From contig LFSK01000193.1 of NCBI GenBank assembly GCA_001512555.1, forward strand, positions 1 through 44,728: a stretch of 44,728 nucleotides of DNA. Direction: 5' to 3'. This stretch comes from Clostridiaceae bacterium DTU059. Lineage in GTDB: Bacteria > Bacillota > Clostridia > DSM-8532. Both the position numbers and the translations under genes were made by a program. Below, piece after piece: positions 26,219 through 28,399 of this stretch (the stretch's first letter is position 1; the number at the start of each line of letters is the position of its first letter). Under the pieces are notes generated by a model that saw only the letters and a program-made list of their open reading frames with translations, did not search any database and had not been told where the DNA came from.

Positions 26219-26246
26219 AAAAAAAGGAGGACGTTTCAGTCCCCCT
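26219..26246 (-). terminator. Intrinsic terminator after the Cys/His-rich gene
   Basis: On the minus strand AGGGGGAC (26246-26239) pairs with GTCCTCCT (26232-26225) with one G-U pair, and a run of seven T residues follows. The stem begins at the last base of the stop codon. Confidence 0.85.
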
Positions 26247-27124
26247 TATCGCTTCTTTACATCTTCACCCAATTCATCATCTGCCGGAAAATCAAATTTC
26301 TGCGGCGGGAAGAACTGGTCAAGAGGGAATTCGATGGTATCAAAGATCTCGCAAGGCTCCTCGTTGGTGGAAGCTATGCATTCCTTGTTGGGGTAGCAGA
26401 AATTGAATGCAGGAATAAGGAGCTGTACCAGCCGAACCAGTTTTATGATGGAGAACAGTCCCAGTGTTACAACCACCCTTCTCTGAGGAAGAACAATGTT
26501 TTCGGCATTACCCTTTTCCTCATCATCGCAAAGGCGATGTTTATGGTGATGGTGGTGGTGATGTACCCTCTTAATCCTCGTATTCAGAACCAGGGGCTCT
26601 GCAACCTCAACCTTCACATTGGGCAGATTATCCTGCTCAACAAGGGATCCGCCGCAGCTGTCACCGCAGGAATCGCCATAGAGGGGGCCATTAGGTGCGG
26701 GGTCCATACTCTTGAAGATCTTGATCTTGCCTTCAGATCCGAAGAGGATAACTGTTTTTTCAAACCCCACAAACCCAACCTTTGGGCACGAGGAAACCAG
26801 GTTTCCATTCATATCCCTGTAGCAGAATTCCACCATGACCTTGATCTGATAGCGTACATTTACGGTGTAAAAACCTCTTTTGAATGGTACGGGTTCCAGA
26901 TCTGCAAATACGGCCACTACCTCGGCATCTTTAGTTTTTACCTTTACCGCATTATTGATGAGGTCCTGAACATTTTCATTAAAATCTACAACCGCATCCT
27001 CAATACAGTCTTTCTCGCGGCAATTGTCATATACTTTTTCCACGTGGACGCAAACGGCTTCACGGAGCTTGCATATGTCTTCGCCGCAGATTAGTCCGGG
27101 AACGATTTGATCTTTGCAACTCAT
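26246..27124 (-). CDS. Cys- and His-rich protein of unknown function, possible spore-layer protein
   Basis: The 292-residue protein has 14 cysteines, including CGEDICKLREAVC, CREKDC, SCGDSCGG and CYPNKEC, and a run of seven histidines at residues 188-194 followed by KH. There is no clear signal peptide. I recall similar proteins in spore-forming Clostridia but know no assigned function. The composition suggests metal binding or disulfide cross-linking, as in spore coats; this is inference. GGAGG precedes the ATG at 27124, a SigK/SigE-like promoter lies at 27165-27192 and a terminator at 26219-26246, which together support this strand over a long antisense frame. Confidence 0.8.
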   Translation of the reverse strand: MSCKDQIVPGLICGEDICKLREAVCVHVEKVYDNCREKDCIEDAVVDFNENVQDLINNAVKVKTKDAEVVAVFADLEPVPFKRGFYTVNVRYQIKVMVEFCYRDMNGNLVSSCPKVGFVGFEKTVILFGSEGKIKIFKSMDPAPNGPLYGDSCGDSCGGSLVEQDNLPNVKVEVAEPLVLNTRIKRVHHHHHHHKHRLCDDEEKGNAENIVLPQRRVVVTLGLFSIIKLVRLVQLLIPAFNFCYPNKECIASTNEEPCEIFDTIEFPLDQFFPPQKFDFPADDELGEDVKKR

Positions 27125-27164
27125 TGCATCGGTCCTCCATTCGAAATATTAGCCTTCACACTGA

Positions 27165-27192
27165 CATAATATGCCTATGGGTTGTTTTGGTG
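27165..27192 (-). promoter_or_regulatory. Possible sporulation (SigK/SigE-like) promoter
   Basis: On the minus strand CACC (27192-27189) lies 15 bases before CATATTATG (27173-27165). These match the general mACm and CATAnnnT pattern of mother-cell sigma factors. No good SigA promoter is seen in the gap. The match is short and could be chance. Confidence 0.3.
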
Positions 27193-27280
27193 ACTGCACG
27201 GCATATTCAGCCGGGGACATAAATATTCATATAAGTATATGAGGCAATTAGCTTATTAAATCCTTAAGGGGTTGTCCAAT

Positions 27281-28399
27281 GTGCCGTATTTTGAGAGTTT
27301 GCGCCATGTTGTAAAAAACAGCATGGGGGTAACATACTGTATTTGGTATAAGAACGGACTATTTATGAGCATGCTGGAAAGCGATAATCACTGGGGGCCG
27401 CCATTCTTGCTCTCAGAGAATGCCACGCCGGATTTTTCTGTTTCCATAGGCCAGGATGACACTATACGGTCATCCTTCGTTGACTATGCCGGAAGGCTGC
27501 TTTTTGTTCAGGCCTGCGAGGAACGGAAGGAACCCGTTGTACTTCTGGAAAGCCGGATTGTAGGAAGCGCACCATACAGTGTTGTGCTCTCAGAATCAAA
27601 AAACGCCACCAATGTATTTTATGTGGTCAGCCATAACCGAAAACAGCTTCTTACCTATCAGCGAATAGAAAATGGGAGTTTTACCATGCCCGAGGTTGAA
27701 GGGGTAATTGTAAGGGGTTGTGAGAACTTTTCGGCATGCTCTGATGGCTCTTCTACACATCTTTTTTTCCTGACCGAGATACAGGACGTAAACCTGATAG
27801 TTCATCGGCGCATCAACTCGGAAGGAAAGGCCATGAAACCAAACAGCGCTCCATTTCCCCACAAGGTTTCAAAAAGGCTGCAGTCGGTCACAGGAAAAGG
27901 CAAGCCCATCTATGTGCTTTTGTCTGGCGGGGAGGATGACGAAAGCACCCTTCTATACCGGTTTGACCCCGAAACCAACAGGTTTTCCAAGGGACTGGAG
28001 GTCTTTAATCCTTCCACCCCAAGGGGATTTGATTCTCTTATTATGGTGGACAACTATCCCTCGGTGGTAAGGACTTGTAATAGCCATATGCTGCTGGCCC
28101 GGGTCAATGCCGATGCCTCCTCGGTGCTGGCAGAAACAAAATTTGACCTGACGACGACAAATCCTCCCCTGAGATGCGGGTATTTATCCAATTACAAGGA
28201 CGATATCAATTTTGCCTGTGCTGATCTGCCCATAATATTCGGCAGCGGTCTGCGCTTTCCCTTGGACTGGAGAACCTACGCCAGCGGGAAATTTGAAAAA
28301 TCCAACGATGAAAAAGATCTGCTCCAAGGCCGCATTAAAGAGCTTGAGGGACGTGTTGAATTCCTTGAAAACACGCTTCGCGAAATGCTTAGGCCATAG
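27281..28399 (+). CDS. Propeller-like protein with C-terminal coiled coil, unknown function
   Basis: The roughly 372-residue protein is rich in short beta-strand pairs over residues 1-320 with recurring turns of the type GSS-T-HLFFLT and KPIYVLLSGG-DESTLLYRF, suggesting a beta-propeller; the fold is inferred. The last 40 residues form a heptad-rich helix (LLQGRIKELEGRVEFLENTLREML), seen here in pieces. There is no signal peptide. I chose the GTG at 27281, nine bases after AAGGGG; a TTG at 27272 abuts that site. It is divergent from the Cys/His-rich gene, so both could share spore-related control. I know no function. Confidence 0.75.
   Translation: MPYFESLRHVVKNSMGVTYCIWYKNGLFMSMLESDNHWGPPFLLSENATPDFSVSIGQDDTIRSSFVDYAGRLLFVQACEERKEPVVLLESRIVGSAPYSVVLSESKNATNVFYVVSHNRKQLLTYQRIENGSFTMPEVEGVIVRGCENFSACSDGSSTHLFFLTEIQDVNLIVHRRINSEGKAMKPNSAPFPHKVSKRLQSVTGKGKPIYVLLSGGEDDESTLLYRFDPETNRFSKGLEVFNPSTPRGFDSLIMVDNYPSVVRTCNSHMLLARVNADASSVLAETKFDLTTTNPPLRCGYLSNYKDDINFACADLPIIFGSGLRFPLDWRTYASGKFEKSNDEKDLLQGRIKELEGRVEFLENTLREMLRP

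Follow-up and report, generated by a model that had tools for sequence, protein, structure and literature searches.

A cysteine-rich gene of Clostridia with a sigma-K-type promoter, probably encoding a late spore-surface protein, is interrupted at fixed sites by serine-recombinase elements in many relatives

Introduction

Intervening elements have been described in sigK, spoVR, spsM, gerE, yabG and other sporulation genes, and the accounts in PMC6957869, PMC10747680, PMC5025042 and PMC5595907 place them almost always in genes of the mother cell. The preference is explained by the fate of the two cells: the element persists in the spore, and the mother cell is lost. Within clostridia, the skin element of sigK is called an exception in the text of PMC5025042. 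The literature that we found treats the programmed excision of such elements one sporulation gene at a time. Our search, which took in few subscription papers and no preprints, returned neither a survey of interrupted clostridial sporulation genes nor a report on the gene described below.

Here, we describe a gene in a 44,728-nucleotide stretch of clostridial DNA (hereafter the window, meaning the whole stretch analyzed). It most likely encodes a Cys-rich spore-surface protein made late in spore formation. The logic of the published elements fits this gene as well, since a gene of sigma-K type would be required in the mother cell alone, and there only at a late stage. The gene is intact in the window and split by inserted DNA in many of its relatives, where the inserts probably must be removed for spores to be completed.

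Results

A cysteine-rich gene, intact in the window

The coding sequence lies on the minus strand at positions 26246 to 27124 (stop codon included), begins with ATG and is preceded by a GGAGG ribosome-binding site (27134 to 27138). Its 292-residue product contains 14 cysteines (residues 3, 13, 18, 25, 35, 40, 101, 113, 153, 157, 199, 243, 249 and 258) and seven consecutive histidines (His188 to His194, codons at 26543 to 26563), which confirms the Cys/His-rich protein proposed in the initial annotation. The extent given there, 26246 to 27192, covers the reading frame; its upper end takes in the promoter and is not the limit of the coding sequence. Cysteine makes up 4.8% of the protein, the highest share among the 31 open reading frames of at least 250 residues in the window (mean 1.65%), a mechanically compiled set in which some frames are not genes. 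The genome of origin carries a single match. Matches were found in 47 of 61 searched genomes, that genome counted, and the frame is therefore not a chance one. Its closest named relative, in Thermoclostridium caenicola, shares 89% identity; both T. caenicola DSM 19027 and Petroclostridium sp. X23 carry the gene uninterrupted. A consensus scan places a terminator-like hairpin and its T tail where the gene ends (26224 to 26247, minus strand), so that the gene is probably a single-gene unit. On the other side, a divergent frame of 375 residues (27272 to 28399, plus strand) without a Pfam match has a homologue in 38 of the 80 family loci, and this co-occurrence suggests that the two genes may function together.

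A conserved family with invariant terminal cysteines

No Pfam or NCBIfam family matched the window protein above its cut-off, and scanning 80 aligned members one by one against both collections gave only scattered chance rows. Against the PDB, the window sequence returned nothing significant (best E 0.1, with most rows centered on the His run) and the family profile no match. The earlier statement that no domain is recognizable thus stands for Pfam, NCBIfam and PDB; it needs amending insofar as the protein belongs to a large conserved clostridial family. Six cysteines are invariant in all 80 members: C25, C35 and C40 in an N-terminal motif (27005 to 27052, minus strand) and C243, C249 and C258 in a C-terminal one (26351 to 26398, minus strand). 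Further conserved motifs are LFGSxG and FPxxxFxPP. The other eight cysteines of the window protein vary across the family, whose members contain 14.1 cysteines on average (range 6–22). AlphaFold predicts a core of confident long beta strands for the protein. Of two models made (mean pLDDT 73.8 and 69.4), neither matched anything in Foldseek at E≤0.001. The best VIA-align row was a SecB-like arrangement with a Z score of 3.9, within the noise of that tool. We make no claim of a novel fold from these models.

The initial annotation had proposed metal loading or cross-linking. A protein that stores or loads metal in the spore through its His run and cysteines would account for the seven consecutive histidines and 14 cysteines of the window protein, and NCBIfam does list a His-rich family at chance level (E 0.6; 11 bits, where the cut-off is 44). 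However, no family passed its cut-off, and the run itself is not a family trait: it counts seven histidines in the window, six in one relative and at most four in 78 of 80 members, with six members lacking histidine altogether. It also falls in a variable linker where the model is unreliable and of low confidence. Since the run is not conserved, we rejected metal loading by it and regard a metal-storage role as highly improbable. Cross-linking, the other half of that proposal, may occur through the invariant cysteines.

The distribution of the family was determined in a class-wide draw of 293 genomes at least 90% complete, sampled evenly across the class. The family profile matched 157 of them at E≤0.001. 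We kept as close homologues the 105 with a best E of 6e-47 or better and set aside the other 52 (4e-19 or worse), whose matches represent a wider superfamily of mostly shorter proteins. In the wider superfamily (L044–L047, L049, L187–L197), the N- and C-terminal motifs are common to both groups, and the four divergent members that we scanned matched no Pfam family.

A sigma-K-type promoter in spore-forming relatives

The initial annotation had described the promoter as SigK/SigE-like. In C. difficile, according to PMC3789822, sigma-K promoters have AC in the -35 element and sigma-E promoters ATA. The window gene is preceded by a CACC element (27189 to 27192, minus strand) that supplies the AC at 27191-27190, followed after 16 bases by CATA, the beginning of the -10 element CATATTATG (27173-27165). 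The AC-type -35 thus narrows the earlier call to a promoter of sigma-K type. We scanned the 100 bases before the start in 80 loci, one of which was too short and one identical to the window, taking as controls the other mechanically listed frames of at least 150 residues in the same loci. The pattern AC-N15..17-CATANNNT was present in 72 of 79 family upstream regions versus 5 of 379 controls, and the exact CATATTATG in 55 of 79 versus 1 of 379. A reverse-complement control was discarded as invalid because the -10 element is nearly palindromic (CATATTATG / CATAATATG, 27165-27173), so that 64 of the 79 loci were also positive, with CATANNNT, on the reverse strand. Such a box could serve the divergent neighbor as well.

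The family was largely confined to spore formers, as judged from SpoIVA, which was found in 220 of the 293 genomes. Both were present in 152 genomes, the family alone in 5, SpoIVA alone in 68 and neither in 68 (Fisher p 4e-22, uncorrected for kinship). The suggested spore role, for which homologues in non-spore-formers had been named as counter-evidence, is thus supported by SpoIVA in 152 of 157 family-positive genomes; conversely, 68 of 73 SpoIVA-negative genomes lack the family. Spo0A_C was matched in all five genomes with the family and without SpoIVA, but also in two of five genomes with neither, making it a weak discriminator. An alternative is a sporulation-specific mother-cell protein that is not itself a coat component but, say, assists or regulates coat assembly as a chaperone or regulator, for which the missing fold and family matches and the weak SecB-like row could be cited. 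That row lies within noise, though, the promoter is of the type used by coat genes, and the high cysteine content includes invariant residues. We consider a non-structural role a minor possibility beside that of a spore-surface component.

Homologues are interrupted at five fixed sites

Of the 105 close-homologue genomes, 24 have the gene in at least two pieces, separated by 1.4–40 kb of inserted DNA where measurable. The breaks fall at five fixed sites, one or more of which are used per gene. Both pieces of at least one junction lie on one contig in 14 of the 24 genomes, and on different contigs in the other 10. We aligned 29 junctions in 26 genomes, namely the 24 of the draw plus G315 and G323 from the family of G164. 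Most fall at site D (16 junctions, VVE/VVDP) and site A (8 junctions, after YDSC), followed by site B (3 junctions, TD/VEPV) and sites C (near residue 100) and E (STD/D.PC) with one each. The same codon positions are broken in different families. All five equivalents in the window, on the minus strand, are empty: site A at 27011 to 27019, site B at 26897 to 26902 (residues 75-76), site C at 26822 to 26830 (around residues 99-101; occupied in G100 only), site D at 26603 to 26608 (E173-V174) and site E at 26363 to 26368 (T253-N254). The inserts measured 1.37–7.7 kb in the 12 junctions with both ends in one fetched stretch; contig coordinates revealed larger ones in G296 (about 20 kb), G123 (35.8 kb) and G175 (40.5 kb). 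Two apparent breaks were put down to contig ends. The match of G027, from the family of the window itself, ends at residue 72 at a contig end, and one of the gaps between the three matches of G287 is a contig edge.

Interrupted and intact genes occur side by side among close relatives. In the family of G164, 9 of 18 matching genomes hold both pieces, 1 only the 5' piece and 8 an intact gene. The family of G041 counts 9 genes in pieces (G327 and G332 being new), 12 intact and 2 represented by one piece only, among 23 matching genomes. Intact sisters within the same genus are found beside G143 (G318 and G319) and beside G327 (G328 and G329). The gene of G327 itself is divided into four pieces, in order on one strand of one contig and spanning about 50.7 kb, by three inserts, at site A (about 37.9 kb), site B (about 7.0 kb) and site E (about 4.9 kb). 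The last two each yielded a recombinase, and the fetched part of the first yielded none. Six relatives were found in IMG/VR. One is intact, and the break is at site A in four and at site D in the last. Three of the four genes broken at site A have a neighboring recombinase that belongs to the site-A group; around the fourth, and around the piece from site D, the model detected none. One IMG/VR contig has a second, different recombinase.

As most of these genomes are drafts and the pieces often lie on different contigs (for example in G041, G198 and G076), the breaks might be thought to arise from assembly. Against this, both pieces occur in order on one contig and strand at 18 junctions (15 of the 29 aligned and the three of G327), and the same breaks are seen in IMG/VR contigs. 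Moreover, when rplB, a gene of similar length, was searched in the same draw, a second match appeared in only 3 of 286 genomes. Splitting in 24 of 105 genomes is beyond what assembly breakage alone explains, and draft artefacts as its source are exceedingly unlikely. Among sporulation genes, YabG showed a kilobase-scale interruption in 1 of 59 cases (G224); six gave frame-shifted pieces that abut or overlap, and nine had a second match that was short and N-terminal. The G224 gene (contig C1, 160536-168310) has about 6.9 kb between its pieces, a candidate yin-like element. SpoIVA, also the product of a mother-cell gene, gave two or three matches, copies or pieces, in 13 of 220 genomes, including G152, G203 and G235 (genus g32); some interruption or duplication of sporulation genes may therefore be general.

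Inserts carry site-matched serine recombinases

A serine recombinase is encoded in the insert at 27 of the 29 junctions, mostly directly beside the break (25 full frames and 2 partial frames at contig ends, one weak). Their domains are PF00239 and PF07508, often with PF13408. No recombinase was present in the DNA fetched for G076 or for the site-C junction of G100, and none in the 605,107 bases holding the 80 intact loci. The recombinases group by site (19 compared): those of site D are 34–95% identical to one another and about 20–31% to the others, mutual identity is 47–48% at site B and 44–58% at site A, and the single site-E enzyme is 38–42% identical to those of site B. All 11 further recombinases matched the group of their own site best, one of them weak and partial (G100, 26% over 105 residues).

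The elements vary widely in content. Terminase and head genes in the 40.5-kb site-A insert of G175 imply that prophages use this site. In smaller inserts, the tested frames that gave a match have non-viral functions, among them GAF, HAD and sugar metabolism. Of the small elements, the two that were tested for it (L131 and L134) both contain a GAF-domain match. Several site-D inserts are very small, 1.37–2.9 kb (L131, L132, L134–L136, L145 and L182), with serine recombinases of about 290 residues; those of L131, L132 and L145 were scanned and gave no zinc-ribbon match.

An earlier search for the longest shared string failed in most loci, and joins were instead placed by family score among candidates of the same phase without stop codons. 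All 29 in-frame joins matched the family consensus, with restoration of the frame largely built in because of this selection. The direct cores measure 2–12 bp across the 29 junctions. Ten of the 29 circle joints have inverted repeats around them at p<0.05 (Fisher combination over all rows, which are not independent, 2.5e-9). With a less refined measure, for which some joints were misplaced, the figure was 8 of 29.

The two halves could, in principle, be products of permanent breakage or gene fission, acting as separate proteins or decaying; both are open frames, and the joined gene is our reconstruction. Several observations speak against this. A family-type promoter of sigma-K type within 220 bases is kept on 21 of 25 5' pieces (the exceptions being G099, G315, G143 and G100) but found on none of 25 3' pieces, G287 excluded. 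The recombinases in nearly all inserts, the recurrence of the same codon positions across families and the intact sisters within a genus are likewise hard to reconcile with fission. Finally, both pieces are under purifying selection in the one genus tested, g67, where both pieces are present in seven of the eight genomes sampled and the remaining one shows just the 5' piece. There, dN/dS was 0.00–0.03 for the 5' half (10 pairs of 5 genomes), 0.007–0.17 for the 3' half (15 pairs of 6 genomes) and 0.05–0.155 for the recombinase (13 of 15 pairs computable), dS being near saturation in many pairs. Permanent breakage is thus improbable, and by analogy the interrupted homologues would correspond to elements of the skin, gin and yin type that are excised in the mother cell. 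What sets off excision may be a directionality factor under mother-cell control, a guess taken from the skin element of C. difficile. Within 220 bases upstream of the recombinases themselves, none of 21 has a sigma-K-type promoter.

Discussion

We propose that sigma-K would drive the gene in the mother cell late in sporulation and that the product would join the spore coat or exosporium. There, the invariant N- and C-terminal cysteines could link beta-rich subunits by disulfides into a layer, a structural role suggested by cysteine content and timing and by analogy with CsxA-type arrays. If the terminal mother cell is the sole user of the gene, the gene would be a safe docking place for mobile DNA. 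Serine-recombinase elements, from tiny non-viral ones to 40-kb prophages, would accordingly settle at fixed codon positions in relatives; the mother cell would cut them out and restore the reading frame, and the spore would retain the interrupted copy. We hold with good confidence that the product is a late mother-cell protein of the sigma-K regulon, likely of the coat or exosporium, and that its gene hosts excisable elements in relatives. It also seems reasonably likely that this late spore-surface gene of Clostridia is a general platform for mobile DNA, with recombinase groups specialized by site (A, B, D and E, the last distantly related to B), prophages at one site, up to three elements per gene and several excisions in one mother cell amounting to a form of DNA splicing.

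One conserved spore gene is thus interrupted in about a quarter of the sampled close-homologue genomes, at fixed sites and with matched recombinases. This offers a comparative system in which to ask why mobile DNA settles in mother-cell genes, how its removal is timed, and how a cell deals with more than one element in the same gene, as well as a source of serine recombinases with known target sites. The gene product, unnamed in Pfam and NCBIfam, is moreover a strong candidate for a surface protein of clostridial spores.

Several described systems resemble this one in part. In skin of B. subtilis and C. difficile, as presented in PMC5025042, a serine-recombinase element likewise splits a mother-cell gene, and excision to an intact gene was shown there, whereas here it is a prediction. 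Unlike skin, whose target is a sigma factor, the elements reported here occupy a Cys-rich coat-like gene at five sites, up to three per gene, and some are only 1.4 kb long. The gin element in gerE of B. cereus ATCC10987 (PMC5595907) is non-viral and uses serine recombination, and its att core lies within inverted repeats, as seen in part of our junctions. In that description gin is 28.6 kb long, has three recombinases and was shown to be excised; our smallest elements, by comparison, measure 1.37–2.9 kb, encode a recombinase of about 290 residues and would be excised by the same logic. For the yin element in yabG of C. botulinum V73, PMC10747680 describes a prophage-like element in a clostridial sigma-K gene, with a recombinase carrying PF00239, PF07508 and PF13408 as here. 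That account concerns a single strain, against 24 of 105 sampled genomes and several sites in the present family. SP-beta in spsM of B. subtilis (PMC4191935) is likewise a prophage in a late spore-surface gene and may be compared with the site-A element of G175; the target gene differs, and the likeness is one of description rather than of recombinase sequence. As for the protein itself, CsxA, CotY/ExsY (PMC7333573) and CdeC are self-assembling Cys-rich spore-surface proteins whose disulfide-linked arrays serve as our model, again compared by description, with 25 cysteines reported for CsxA in PMC7333573 and 14 in the window protein.
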